Origin: Fontisphaera persica
Lineage (GTDB): Bacteria; Verrucomicrobiota; Verrucomicrobiia; Limisphaerales; Fontisphaeraceae
Direction of reading: 5' to 3'
Length of the DNA: 64,000 nt
Assembly: GCF_024832785.1 (NCBI RefSeq)
Contig: NZ_CP116615.1
Coordinates: 4,340,001-4,404,000 of the forward strand
A model generated the notes under the pieces. It was not told the origin of the DNA and searched no databases. It saw only the letters and a program-made list of their open reading frames with translations. Every line of letters begins with the position of its first letter. Position 1 is the stretch's first letter. The position numbers were made by a program, and so were the translations under genes. Of the stretch, positions 48,638 through 53,553 are shown one piece after another.

Positions 48638-48772
48638 ATCAGGATTCGGGGCCTTAAGATGCGCCACTCCTCGCCCCTTGGCAATCCTGCATTTAACCTG
48701 GGACAGATTTGGACACATCCTGCTTTATATAGGCTTGGGCCTGCCAGCCATGCCTCGGGAATCGAAGGCCAT

Positions 48773-49334
48773 AAAAAGAAATCGGACATCAAAAACAGAA
48801 ATGAACAGAAGGCAACAAAGGGAACGGAGGAGAAACCAGACACCGCCTCACCATCACTTCGTTACCTTCGTTGCCTTCTGTTGGAATCTCTTATTGGTTT
48901 GCTCCCGGCAAGATTAAGCGGCGGATTCCGTCCGTCAGTTTGATTTGGTGGAAGTTGATTAGCAGGCCCACTGGAACATCGAGCAGCTTCATGTAGCTCA
49001 GGAGTTGCGCCTGGTGCATGGGCTGGATTTCTTGCACCGACTTCAACTCCAGCAGCAGGCAGCCTTCCACCAACACATCGAAGCGTAACGGTTCCTCAAA
49101 TACCACGCCCTTGTATTCGATTTTGACCAGCCGCTGGCTGAGAAATCGAAGCTGGCGAAGCTCCAACTCGCGCATCAGGCATTTTTCATAGATGCTTTCG
49201 ATAAGACCGGGGCCTTTGAGGCGGTGCACCTCGATGGCCGCTCCAATGACGTGGCGGCTTAACCGATTAGCTTGCTCATATAATGGGTGCATGGGGTTGA
49301 ACCTGCCACTAATGCAGCGGATGTTGAAAGCCAG
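48773..49334. repeat. 562-bp tandem repeat, unit 1
   Basis: The sequence repeats at exactly 562-bp spacing: AAAAAGAAATCGGACATC starts at 48773, 49335 and 49897. The unit carries a noncoding block with a 16-bp near-perfect inverted repeat (arms 48806-48821 and 48865-48880, one mismatch) followed by one GxxExxY gene on the minus strand. The arms flank about 43 bases. Confidence 0.9.
48891..49292 (-). CDS. GxxExxY family protein, copy 1 (PD-(D/E)XK-like)
   Basis: This is a 133-residue GxxExxY protein (PDDEXK_3 group), related to PD-(D/E)XK nucleases but of unknown biological role. The naming motif GLIESIY is at residues 29-35. The nuclease-like core shows D72 in RFDVLVEG and E82/K84 in LLELKSV, matching D...ExK. 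There is no signal peptide. I start at the ATG at 49292 because the second copy begins identically. The protein is almost identical to copy 2: only Val/Ile at residue 106 differs. Six bases differ between the two coding sequences, five of them silent. Why bacteria carry several copies is not known. Confidence 0.92.
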   Translation of the reverse strand: MHPLYEQANRLSRHVIGAAIEVHRLKGPGLIESIYEKCLMRELELRQLRFLSQRLVKIEYKGVVFEEPLRFDVLVEGCLLLELKSVQEIQPMHQAQLLSYMKLLDVPVGLLINFHQIKLTDGIRRLILPGANQ

Positions 49335-49896
49335 AAAAAGAAATCGGACATCAAACACAGAAATGAACAGAAGGCAACAAAGGGAACGGAGGAGAAACAA
49401 GACACTGCCTCACCACCACTTCGTTACCTTCGTTGCCTTCTGTTGGAATCTCTTATTGGTTTGCTCCCGGCAGGATTAAGCGGCGGATTCCATCCGTCAG
49501 TTTGATTTGGTGGAAGTTGATTAGCAGGCCCACCGGAATATCGAGCAACTTCATGTAGCTCAGGAGTTGCGCCTGGTGCATGGGCTGGATTTCTTGCACC
49601 GACTTCAACTCCAGCAGCAGGCAGCCTTCCACCAACACATCGAAGCGTAACGGTTCCTCAAATACCACGCCCTTGTATTCGATTTTGACCAGCCGCTGGC
49701 TGAGAAATCGAAGCTGGCGAAGCTCCAACTCGCGCATCAGGCATTTTTCATAGATGCTTTCGATAAGACCGGGGCCTTTGAGGCGGTGCACCTCGATGGC
49801 CGCTCCAATGACGTGGCGGCTTAACCGATTAGCTTGCTCATATAATGGATGCATGGGGTTGAACCTGCCACTAATGCAGCGGATGTTGAAAGCCAG
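49335..49896. repeat. 562-bp tandem repeat, unit 2
   Basis: This is the second complete unit, with the same order as unit 1: the inverted-repeat block (49335-49452), then GxxExxY copy 2. Direct comparison shows only scattered substitutions in the coding part, so the duplication is recent or kept similar by gene conversion. Confidence 0.9.
49453..49854 (-). CDS. GxxExxY family protein, copy 2 (PD-(D/E)XK-like)
   Basis: This is a 133-residue twin of copy 1, with the same GLIESIY motif at 29-35 and D72/E82/K84 core, and Ile at residue 106 where copy 1 has Val. Five of the six coding differences between the copies fall in the 3' third of the gene; the rest of the gene is identical apart from one silent base near the start. 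The pattern suggests selection to keep the protein intact, or recent gene conversion. The inverted-repeat block lies immediately downstream of the stop codon in both copies and could end the transcript, but it has no T-run in that direction. Confidence 0.92.
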   Translation of the reverse strand: MHPLYEQANRLSRHVIGAAIEVHRLKGPGLIESIYEKCLMRELELRQLRFLSQRLVKIEYKGVVFEEPLRFDVLVEGCLLLELKSVQEIQPMHQAQLLSYMKLLDIPVGLLINFHQIKLTDGIRRLILPGANQ

Positions 49897-50182
49897 AAAA
49901 AGAAATCGGACATCAAAAACAGAAAAGAACAGAAGGCAACAAAGGGAACGGAGCAGAAACCAGACACTGCCTCACCATCACTTCGTTGCCTTCTGTTGAA
50001 TATTCCACCGCCTTAAGCAAAGAGTGAGAAATAGCGCACACAGGAGATAAACCCATCACTGCAAACCGCAGAAACCCGCGCCTTTTTCGCCCATGCTCGG
50101 CGGCTCCCCTTTGCCGCGCCCGCCGCCCGTCTCGGTTAACCTTGGCAGACAACCCGGAAGCCATTAAACTTTCCCCTCAATC
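49855..50182. other. 328-bp gene-free spacer before the ABC transporter genes
   Basis: It contains the partial third unit of the tandem repeat (49897-49998). The rest (about 49999-50182) is ordinary GC-rich sequence in which I see no gene, RNA or clear promoter. A promoter for the binding-protein gene should lie here. Confidence 0.7.
49897..49998. repeat. partial third unit of the 562-bp repeat
   Basis: This is a truncated copy of only the noncoding inverted-repeat block, with a small internal deletion in the right arm region (the CTTCGTTACCTTCG part is shortened). It lacks the GxxExxY gene. It shows that the block can stand at both ends of the array, so the duplication may have occurred by recombination between block copies. 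Confidence 0.85.
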
Positions 50183-51178
50183 ATGCAATGCAAAGTCCTG
50201 ATGACCGTGGGGGAACAGGCTCGTTCTCAATCCAAGGCATGGCGCCTCCTCGCCGGTTTGGCGGTCATGGCCGCCTTTCTCCTTTCCCTCATACTCCCCT
50301 TGACTGGATGCCAGCGCAGCGACACCCGCGAGGTCGTTGTGTACGCCGCCCAGGACCAGGTCTTCGCCGAACCCATCCTGCGGGAATTCACCCGCGAAAC
50401 CGGCATCCGCGTGCGCACCGTCTTTGACAGCGAGGCCGTCAAAACCGTGGGGCTGGCCAACCGCCTGCTGGCCGAGACCAACCGGCCCCAGGCCGATGTC
50501 TTCTGGGGCAACGAGGAATTTCGCACCCGCCAACTGGCGGCCTTGGGCGTCTTTCGGCCCACCAATGGCTGGGCGGCCTTTGGCTTTCGCAGCCGGCGGC
50601 TGGTCGTCAACACCCGCCTGGCGCCCCACCTTACCGTCACCAATGTCCTCTACCTGCGCGAACTAACCAACCGGACTTGGCGCGGCAAAATCGCCCTGGC
50701 CTACCCCCTCTTCGGCACCACCGCCACCCATTTCCACGCCTTGCGCCAATACTGGGGCACCGCCGCCTGGGAGCAATGGTGTCGCGCCCTCCAGGCCAAC
50801 CAACCCCTCCTGGTGGACGGCAATTCCGTGGTGGTCAACCTCGTGGGCCGCGGTGAGGCCGCGCTTGGCCTCACCGATTCCGATGACATTGCCGCCGGCA
50901 AAAAACGCGGCTACCCCATCATCGCCCTCCCCCTCACCGAAGAAACCTTGCTCATTCCCAACACCGTGGCCGTCATCCGTAACGCGCCTCGTCCGGCCGA
51001 AGCCGAGGCGCTGTTTCGTTACCTCCAAACGCGGCCGGTGTTGGATGCGCTCCTCAACGCCGAGGCCCTCGAGGGCGCCCAGCCCGGTTTGCGCCCCCAT
51101 TTGAAAGTGCGGTGGGACGAAGTGCTCCGCGACCTCGAGGATACCAACGAGCGGCTCAAGCAAATCTTCCTGCGATGA
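50183..51178 (+). CDS. ABC transporter iron-type substrate-binding lipoprotein
   Basis: This is a 331-residue periplasmic binding lipoprotein of the Fe3+ (FbpA/AfuA) type family. Lipobox LPLTGC carries Cys43. The opening of the mature protein, VVVYAAQDQVFAEPILREFTRETGIRVRTVFDSEAVK (in pieces), and QADVFWGNEEF are typical. GRGEAALGLTDSDDIAAGKKRG is the hinge-proximal part. The tyrosine cluster that coordinates Fe3+ in FbpA is not obvious here, so the substrate could be iron or another ligand. The stop overlaps the permease start by four bases (ATGA). No ATPase gene follows in this window. Confidence 0.86.
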   Translation: MQCKVLMTVGEQARSQSKAWRLLAGLAVMAAFLLSLILPLTGCQRSDTREVVVYAAQDQVFAEPILREFTRETGIRVRTVFDSEAVKTVGLANRLLAETNRPQADVFWGNEEFRTRQLAALGVFRPTNGWAAFGFRSRRLVVNTRLAPHLTVTNVLYLRELTNRTWRGKIALAYPLFGTTATHFHALRQYWGTAAWEQWCRALQANQPLLVDGNSVVVNLVGRGEAALGLTDSDDIAAGKKRGYPIIALPLTEETLLIPNTVAVIRNAPRPAEAEALFRYLQTRPVLDALLNAEALEGAQPGLRPHLKVRWDEVLRDLEDTNERLKQIFLR

Positions 51179-53553
51179 ACTGGCTCCTGCTGGGCAACAG
51201 CCTGGCGCTGGCGGCGGCGGTCACGGCCGCCACGTTGCTTGCCGGCCTGCCGGCCGCGCTCGCGTTGAACGGCCTCCGGGGCGCGGCCCGCGCGCTGGTC
51301 CTCGGCGGAGTCATCACCGCCCTGGCTCTCCCCTCTTTCGTGGTGGTGGACGCCTGGCTGGAATGGCTGGGCGCCGGCGGCCGCCTGGCCCACCTGCTGC
51401 CGCCCTGGTGCAAGATTTATTCCCTCCCGGGCGCGGCCTGGGTGCTCTCCCTCATGTTCTGGCCCATCCCCTGCCTGGCCGCCTGGAGCGCGTGGCAGGC
51501 CCTGACCCGTGAACATTACGAGAGCGAGCCTGCCTTGCGGGGATGGCCCCTGTGCCGCTGGCTCTTGTGGCCTGCGGCCGTCCGCCGGCTGGCTTTGGCC
51601 GCCGGGCTGGTGGCCGTGCTGACCTTGAATCACCTGGCCGTGCCCGCCATTCTGCAGGTGCGCGTGCTCCCGGCCGAAATGTGGGTGGCATTCAACACCG
51701 AACTTGACGCCTGGGCGGCCTTGCAACGCGGCCTCCCCTTGATGGCCGCCGCCGCTCTGCTCCTGGGCGCGCTCAGCCGCCAGCGCGAATGGAGCTGGCC
51801 GCGCGCCAGCGGAGCCGCGCCCGCGAAACTTTACCAGCAGCGTCTGGGCCGCCCGGCCTTTTGCGGAACCTTGGGCATTGTGGCCCTCCTGCTGCTTCTC
51901 TCCGTCATCGCCCCGCTGGTGCGACTATGGCCCGCAGGCGGCTGGCAGGAAATCCTGCCCGTTGCCTGGAGTGACCGCAGCGCGCTGCTCCATTCGTGGC
52001 TCAACGCCGCCATCGCCGCCACCGCCGCCACTGCGGCGGGGGTTATCGCGCATCGCGCCCACGCCGGCCGCCCGCTGCCGATGCGCGGGTGGGAATGGGG
52101 GTTATGGCTGCCTTTCTTCGTCCCGGGCGTGTTGTTGGCAGTGGCCTGGATTAAACTGTTGAACCGGCCAGGGCTCGAATTACTCTACCAAAGCCACGCC
52201 ATGATGTGGCTCGCCCTCGCCGTCCGCTATTTCGCCGTGGGCTGGTTTGGCACGCGCCTGGCCCTTGGCGCGATGGACCGCACCTTGTTGGAAGCCGCCC
52301 GCCTGGAAGGCGCGCGCGGCTGGGCGTGGTTTCGCGTGGCCGTCTGGCCTCAGGCAGGCACGCCGCTGGCTGCCGTCTGGTACCTCATCTATTTGCTGAC
52401 GCTGTGGGATGCGGAAACCATTTTGCTCATCCAGCCGCCCGGCGGAGAAACCCTCGCCCTGCGCGTGTTCAACCTCCTGCACTACGGGCATCATGGCCTG
52501 GTGAACACCCTTTGCCTCTGGCTGGTCGCCCTGGCCTTGCTGCCGCTGGCGCTTTGGGGGGCCGCGCATTTTCTGGCTCAGCTTCGCTGGCGGTCTGTCG
52601 CTGCTTTTACGGGGGGCCTGGCCTGCCTCTTCTTGGCCACCGGCTGCGGCCAGCCCGCCGCCGGCCGGCAGGCCCCCTTGAACAGCCGGTTTTTTGAACG
52701 CTCTGAAATCATCGGCGAACGCGGCAGCGGCTACGGACAATTCAGCAAACCCCGCTCCGTTGCCGTGGACCGCGCCGGCAATGTCTATGCCGTGGACATG
52801 ACCGGCCGCGTGCAAAAATTCTCCCCCGCCGGCGCCTTTTTATTGTCCTGGCAAATGCCCGAAACCGACCTGGGCAAGGCCAAAGGCATGGGGGTGGATT
52901 TGGCGGGCAACATCCTCGTAGTTGAGCCGCACTATCAGCGCATCAACCACTTCACGCCCGATGGCCGCCTGGTCCGCCAATGGGGCCAGCGTGGCACCAA
53001 CACCGGCCAGTTCATCCTCCCCCGCGCCATTGCCGTCAATGCCCACGGCGATTATTTCATCCCCGAATACACCGTCGTGGAGCGCGTCCAGGCCTTCGCC
53101 GCCGCGGATGGCCGCCTGCTGGCCGCCTGGGGGCAGCGTGGCACCGGCCCCGGCGAGTTCAACCGCCCCGAAGGCGTGGCCGTGGACCGGCACAACCGCG
53201 TGTACGTCGCCGATTCCTGCAACCACCGCATCCAAATCTTTGACGCCTCCGGCAAATTCTTGCGCCTGCACGGCAAACCCGGCCGCGGCCCGGGCGAGTT
53301 CTCTTATCCGTATGACATCAAAGTGGACGCCGCCGGCTACCAGTATGTGTGCGAGTTCGGCAACAGCCGCATCCAGATTTTGGATGCGCAAGACAAGCCG
53401 GTCGAAATCATCGGCCAGCCCGGCGCGCGCCCGGGCGAGTTCAACAATCCCTGGGCCATTGCGTTGGACGCGGACGGCAACCTCTACGTGGCCGACGGCA
53501 ACAACCACCGCCTGCAAAAACTGGTGCGCCGCAAACCAACCCCGGGAAAATAA
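51175..53553 (+). CDS. ABC permease fused to an NHL-repeat propeller
   Basis: This is a 792-residue protein with two parts. Residues 1 to about 470 are an FbpB-like double permease with some 11-12 membrane segments; the EAA loop is at about 372-393 (EAARLEGARGWAWFRV). Residues about 500-792 form an NHL-type beta-propeller with roughly six repeats, for example GEFNRPEGVAVDRHNRVYVADSCNHRIQIFD, given in fragments. Between them FTGGLACLFLATGC (Cys491) looks like a lipoprotein signal, as if a separate lipoprotein gene had merged with the permease gene. I see no in-frame ATG or GTG between residue 444 and about 526, so internal re-initiation at a normal codon is unlikely. The start overlaps the binding-protein stop (ATGA). 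The fusion is real in this sequence, barring an assembly error. Confidence 0.86.
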   Translation: MNWLLLGNSLALAAAVTAATLLAGLPAALALNGLRGAARALVLGGVITALALPSFVVVDAWLEWLGAGGRLAHLLPPWCKIYSLPGAAWVLSLMFWPIPCLAAWSAWQALTREHYESEPALRGWPLCRWLLWPAAVRRLALAAGLVAVLTLNHLAVPAILQVRVLPAEMWVAFNTELDAWAALQRGLPLMAAAALLLGALSRQREWSWPRASGAAPAKLYQQRLGRPAFCGTLGIVALLLLLSVIAPLVRLWPAGGWQEILPVAWSDRSALLHSWLNAAIAATAATAAGVIAHRAHAGRPLPMRGWEWGLWLPFFVPGVLLAVAWIKLLNRPGLELLYQSHAMMWLALAVRYFAVGWFGTRLALGAMDRTLLEAARLEGARGWAWFRVAVWPQAGTPLAAVWYLIYLLTLWDAETILLIQPPGGETLALRVFNLLHYGHHGLVNTLCLWLVALALLPLALWGAAHFLAQLRWRSVAAFTGGLACLFLATGCGQPAAGRQAPLNSRFFERSEIIGERGSGYGQFSKPRSVAVDRAGNVYAVDMTGRVQKFSPAGAFLLSWQMPETDLGKAKGMGVDLAGNILVVEPHYQRINHFTPDGRLVRQWGQRGTNTGQFILPRAIAVNAHGDYFIPEYTVVERVQAFAAADGRLLAAWGQRGTGPGEFNRPEGVAVDRHNRVYVADSCNHRIQIFDASGKFLRLHGKPGRGPGEFSYPYDIKVDAAGYQYVCEFGNSRIQILDAQDKPVEIIGQPGARPGEFNNPWAIALDADGNLYVADGNNHRLQKLVRRKPTPGK

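Follow-up and report, generated by a model that had tools for sequence, protein, structure and literature searches.

A gene in which an ATP-binding cassette (ABC) importer permease is joined to an NHL propeller lies in Fontisphaera persica, within the 64,000-nucleotide stretch analysed here (the window; positions 4,340,001 to 4,404,000 of contig NZ_CP116615.1). Its single open frame runs from an ATG at 51175 to a stop ending at 53553 and encodes 792 amino acids with no internal stop, in a genome that forms one contig of 4,726,914 bases (4.73 Mb), and the unbroken frame claimed in an earlier sequence-only reading of this DNA therefore holds. Residues 478-491 of the protein, FTGGLACLFLATGC, form part of the junction between the two halves.

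The fusion is real and not a product of chance, because the same arrangement recurs across the order. A match at E ≤ 1e-45 was present in 157 of 293 genomes sampled from the order; loci were read in 141 of these in-order genomes (16 were left out), and the gene was fused in 115, separate in 21 and unclear in five. Of these five, a contig end truncates three (G018, G108, G265), the frame of G162 stays fused as far as a contig end, and that of G099 is broken. The fusion is also present in a same-genus genome (G001) and a same-family genome (G002). These counts answer the question, raised by the sequence-only reading, of whether same-phylum genomes carry a fusion or separate adjacent genes. Phylum-wide, eight of 288 genomes match at 1e-30, namely the window's own genome and seven labelled as the same phylum, and for those seven the matches listed cover the NHL part only; the public relatives found were six Verrucomicrobiota records. 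A row was counted as fused where an open frame crossed the junction, and the cysteine described below played no part in the selection. The 121 fused rows used throughout are the 115 distinct genomes and six public records whose junctions duplicate those of genome rows.

At the junction, the column of Cys491 holds cysteine in all 121 fused rows, and the residue before it is always small (Gly in 111, Ala in six, Ser in four), which bears out the earlier description of the linker as resembling a lipoprotein signal. Identity to the window protein averages 0.40-0.42 over residues 1-440 and 0.46 over residues 441-465, falls to 0.16 over residues 466-489, reaches 0.96 at residues 490-491, and is 0.29 over residues 492-510 and 0.61 over residues 511-792. 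The uncharged run before the cysteine has a median length of 16 residues (range 11-31; 11-12 in 10 rows and 13-14 in 38), compared with a median of 17 in binding proteins, and is often short for a permanent membrane span; in the window it measures 17. The 16 residues preceding this run carry a net charge of at least +1 in 117 of the 121 rows. An invariant cysteine, a small residue before it, a basic turn, a short hydrophobic stretch and drift elsewhere together make up the pattern expected of a working Lgt/LspA site. Lipidation of Cys491 is likely by this pattern of conservation, and cleavage before Cys491 is predicted with less assurance.

The quality of the internal box is similar to that of ordinary boxes nearby. 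Of the 121 internal boxes, 46 have the strict form [LVI][ASTVI][GAS]C, as do 22 of the 63 lipobox-like boxes in binding proteins and 16 of 29 scored separate NHL genes. As a yardstick we used the upstream solute-binding proteins at the same loci, of which 63 of 105 (58 of 97 where the fusion is present) have a lipobox-like motif, a count that is possibly low, as only the 30 residues before the sequence match were scanned and 14 of the 105 are cut at the 5' end. Because no more than these 63 show one, such boxes seem to be readily absent where they are not needed; judged by these counts, the internal box is more strictly held than the ordinary N-terminal box of the same operon. Among separate NHL genes, [GAS]C occurs in 28 of 29 scored rows, and the 29th has unread letters. 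In these separate-gene relatives the lipobox lies near the N-terminus, whereas in the fusion the signal is internal, at residues 471-491.

Family and fold matches identify the two halves. Pfam places NHL repeats in the C-terminal part and matched no permease family in its scan of the fusion protein; in NCBIfam, the N-terminal part weakly matched the permeases PotC and PhnU2, and the ScyF (NHL/PEP-CTERM) model scored 166.7 bits, below the cut-off of 350. An AlphaFold2 model built on a 98-sequence alignment, with the window protein first, has a mean predicted local distance difference test score (pLDDT) of 93.1 and a predicted template modelling score (pTM) of 0.87. In this model, permease helices extend to residue 469, a separate helix spans residues 472-489, pLDDT falls below 50 at residues 492-494, and propeller strands occupy residues 499-785. 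By VIA-align, residues 1-465 match Thermus thermophilus FbpB (9j4r_A; Z 33.3, root-mean-square deviation 3.5, 449 aligned, 23% identity) and the C-terminal half matches NHL domains (6xg7, Z 40.8). The FbpB-type double permease (about residues 1-470) and the NHL propeller (from about residue 500) of the sequence-only reading are thus both sustained, the second by the model strands as well.

The AlphaFold2 model is mute on cleavage and on membrane orientation. Loop charge averaged over the alignment alternates, with both loops that bear the coupling motifs (which we take to be of the EAA type; Table 1) and the loop at residues 461-479 (+3.4) inside; the same averages put the part beyond the last hydrophobic stretch outside, as a lipoprotein signal would be oriented. 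This alternation of charge and the modelled helix break agree with the periplasmic propeller suggested earlier, neither amounting to proof. The pTM of 0.87 lies above the value of about 0.6 expected for freely placed domains, hinting that the propeller may dock on the importer.

Table 1 Features of the fusion gene and its upstream neighbour (window coordinates)
Feature	Position	Strand	Remarks
Solute-binding protein gene, 331 aa, FbpA-type sequence likeness	50183..51178	+	Stop overlaps fusion-gene start
Fusion gene: FbpB-type ABC permease, internal lipoprotein signal (predicted) and NHL propeller, 792 aa	51175..53553	+	
Permease part, residues 1-470, FbpB-like	51175..52584	+	Structure match over residues 1-465
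First EAA-type coupling motif, residues 116-123	51520..51543	+	E116 at least 90%, G123 at least 85% (alignment)
Second EAA-type coupling motif EAARLEG, residues 373-379	52291..52311	+	G379 at least 90% (alignment)
Basic turn R471-W-R473	52585..52593	+	Cytoplasmic by positive-inside pattern; would be n-region of internal signal
Hydrophobic stretch, residues 472-490 (helix 472-489 in model)	52588..52644	+	Ends ATG before Cys
Cys491 codon, predicted lipidation site	52645..52647	+	First residue after predicted LspA cut; Cys in 121/121 fused rows
NHL propeller, residues 499-785	52669..53529	+	Pfam NHL repeats, model strands, structure matches

The separate forms and the outgroups speak to the history of the gene. 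The 21 genomes with separate genes are 16 of one family (f2) together with G028, G040, G080, G163 and G236. Both genes lie on one contig in G028, G080, G163 and G236 (with unread letters at the junction of G163) and on different contigs in G003, G040, G062, G189 and G243; in the other 12, all of family f2, only one gene is visible, stop-closed toward the junction. We placed 144 NHL domains on a tree made by a quick method, which has long outgroup branches and 56 of 141 inner branches drawn open. On it, the fused and separate states need seven changes, four of which are forced by starred branches, and the separate forms fall among the fused ones: G080 beside G106 is best supported (97, starred), G236 stands beside G244 (91, not starred), and the f2 rows form one clade of 15 (starred) within a mixed group of weak support. 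Relatives with separate genes at this junction, which the sequence-only reading would have held against a true fusion, do occur (21 of 141) but lie among the fused forms; because of this nesting we read them as later splits and not as a sign of error in the window. By parsimony, the gene would have fused once and split several times. In G080 (L089 10344-11985), the permease and NHL halves are separated by an AbiLi-like gene (E 3.2e-96) and a second gene with a weak AbiLii match (E 2.3e-4), and the NHL half reads MEALPRPALCALALCLLAGC, a textbook lipoprotein start. In same-phylum outgroups the NHL protein has a gene to itself, complete with a lipobox, and three of these outgroups (G296 in L095, G508 in L097 and G527 in L221) show the order permease, ABC ATPase, NHL gene. 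These standalone lipobox genes, set apart from the permease in the three, support the earlier proposal that a permease gene merged with a lipoprotein gene.

No ATPase gene was found in the window. Across 48 longer loci from order genomes or records, many of them cut by contig ends, none was found within 11 kb, and one match lies about 11.6 kb from the fusion (G182). The window's own genome yielded no TOBE_2 match over the cut-off, where a control found TOBE_2 in 13 of 14. We searched for an orthologous ATPase with an outgroup ATPase as the query and rejected all candidates: the own genome gave a smear of ABC ATPases (110 bits at best, then 105 and 102) and ten relatives gave 123 bits at best, with none standing out in either. 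The importer permease seems to have lost its neighbouring ATPase gene; because conservation persists in both EAA-type motifs, it would be expected to work with an ATPase encoded elsewhere in the genome.

Other genes recur around the fusion. Of the 48 longer loci, 44 encode a vWA/GATase-like membrane protein, 36 the binding protein, 32 a BatA-type vWA protein, 28 a DUF58 protein and 19 MoxR, the domains being named from locus L067. In the window we found the binding protein and the fusion only, and no MoxR, DUF58, BatA or vWA/GATase gene. A vWA/GATase-like gene lies away from the fusion in the own genome (G000), at the contig end (4724128-4726914), and the 15-16 kb examined at each contig end yielded no further operon genes. 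The window's binding protein has an N-terminal lipobox, LPLTGC, with its cysteine at residue 43; of the operon's binding proteins, 42 of 105 lack [GAS]C in the 30 residues that precede the match, and so their anchoring seems to vary. Upstream of these genes, at 48729-49993 of the window, lies a tandem repeat whose unit measures about 562 bases (a 300-nt part twice at 92% and a 141-nt part three times at 87%); it bears near-identical minus-strand genes, of which the one examined is PDDEXK_3.

We consider it somewhat probable that the gene encodes a permease-prolipoprotein polyprotein that is lipidated and cut at Cys491. We favour this reading also because standalone NHL genes carry a lipobox and because the Lgt (228.6 bits) and LspA (125.5 bits) families are both present in the own genome. 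The polyprotein would consist of an ABC-importer permease followed by a complete prolipoprotein. The permease would end at the cytoplasmic face, and the basic turn with the 17 uncharged residues that follow it would recross the membrane as a lipoprotein signal, so that Cys491 would emerge at the periplasmic face, where Lgt would add diacylglycerol to it and LspA would cut before it. The products, made one to one, would be a free permease and a lipid-anchored NHL propeller, which may remain docked to the importer at its periplasmic side. The fusion may have arisen before the radiation of the order, with loss of an ATPase gene between the permease and NHL genes, a loss that we infer brought the two together; it would later have split again several times. 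A more elaborate version, in which Lgt and LspA lipidate and cut the conserved polyprotein at its internal signal, the permease without an ATPase of its own serves a MoxR-vWA membrane complex, and the propeller is a periplasmic sensor, strikes us as unlikely.

The main rival to the polyprotein is an uncut fusion, in which the hydrophobic stretch is the last membrane span and the propeller stays permanently tethered as in OpuA and GlnPQ, with a lipid on Cys491 as a possible extra anchor. Retention of the fusion in 115 of 141 genomes and a model that forms one confident chain are what such a tether would give, and permease-linked periplasmic domains are known (from the extract of PMC8025302). 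A plain tether, however, requires neither an invariant cysteine nor a Gly, Ala or Ser before it, the uncharged stretch is only 11-14 residues long in 48 of 121 rows, and several lineages split the halves yet kept the lipobox; we regard the uncut form as doubtful, though a serious contender. Several observations weigh against cleavage, or against the history we attach to it. The window's own box, ATGC, is not strict, nor are 75 of the 121 internal boxes; the pTM of 0.87 would suit an uncut protein equally well; and the hydropathy segmentation that underlies the topology is noisy, with ragged segments. Because the deep branches of the tree are weakly supported, a single fusion with later splits is a parsimony argument and no proof. 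Since tight operon coupling would suffice for one-to-one products, the persistence of the fusion may mean that the tether is of some use. A literature search yielded no case of LspA cleaving an internal signal in a polytopic protein, and found no paper, by title or the start of the abstract, on a permease-NHL fusion or an internal lipobox in a permease.

The two halves might also be uncoupled at translation, the NHL half being made separately from an internal start as well. Some ATG, GTG or TTG does lie 12-45 codons before the cysteine in 118 of 121 fused rows, but only 11 of the rows have one whose Shine-Dalgarno-like match reaches at least 4, or seven if ATG and GTG alone are counted. The sole start-type codon among codons 446-479 of the window is TTG 455, without such a match, and the next in frame are TTG 487 and TTG 503. 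The sequence-only reading had placed no in-frame ATG or GTG between residue 444 and about 526; their absence there is correct, and the end point moves, as the first GTG is codon 531. The distance between the conserved His436 and the cysteine ranges over 42-221 codons in 33 different lengths, every one in frame, which independent starts would not need. This variety of in-frame linkers and the scarcity of good starts point to selection for keeping the frame joined and tell against a separate start, making an internal start improbable. A sequencing or assembly error that masks a stop and a start can call on the 21 genomes with separate genes; the recurrence of the fusion in 115 genomes, including those of the same genus and family, rules it out for practical purposes.

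The closest counterpart to the permease half is FbpB of the ferric-iron importer FbpBC (PDB 9j4r), with which it shares the fold, EAA-type motifs in both halves and an adjoining FbpA-like binding protein; it differs in its C-terminal lipoprotein module and in a locus without an ATPase gene. The window's binding protein aligns with the Thermus FbpA-type protein such that TNHYY becomes TDSDD, at a low-confidence alignment end, the comparison being one pairwise match to two near-identical chains and of modest weight. The Tyr pair of the Thermus protein, which we take to bind iron, is Asp-Asp in the window protein, and for that reason iron binding in the FbpA manner looks unlikely.

Two other comparisons concern domains attached to transporters or neighbouring genes. 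In OpuA, the binding domain is fused to the permease. GlnPQ likewise carries an extracytoplasmic binding domain on the permease chain, according to the extract of PMC8025302. The window protein shares with both an extracytoplasmic domain on the permease chain, but that domain is an NHL propeller with no binding-protein fold, and the junction holds an invariant lipobox. In the MoxR-vWA beta-propeller ternary systems, as the extract of PMC7159879 describes them, the propeller lies C-terminal to vWA within a single protein and the MoxR P-loop is often GxxxTAKS. The relatives' loci similarly hold MoxR, DUF58 and vWA genes beside a propeller, whereas the vWA proteins of L067 have no propeller domain and the propeller is on the permease chain. 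The L067 MoxR has the P-loop GVPGLGKT and scores 212 bits with Pfam AAA_3 against 47 bits with bpMoxR. Although it thereby passes the bpMoxR cut-off of 27, the defining features given in that extract are absent from L067, the one operon compared, and we rejected membership in these conflict systems. More generally, the finding flags an importer module seemingly without a neighbouring ATPase gene, often beside MoxR and vWA genes.

FbcH, the cytochrome b/c1 polyprotein of Bradyrhizobium, offers a parallel: it joins a membrane protein to a periplasmic one in a single frame, and the two come apart at an internal signal. It is not a lipoprotein. Lipoprotein processing is described for N-terminal signals. 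With ordinary prolipoproteins, the substrates of Lgt and LspA, the fusion shares a basic stretch, a hydrophobic stretch, a small residue and an invariant cysteine, but its signal comes only after about 470 residues of a polytopic protein and not at the N-terminus. If the polyprotein reading is true, Lgt and LspA can process an internal signal as a normal step, and bacteria make membrane polyproteins in this way.

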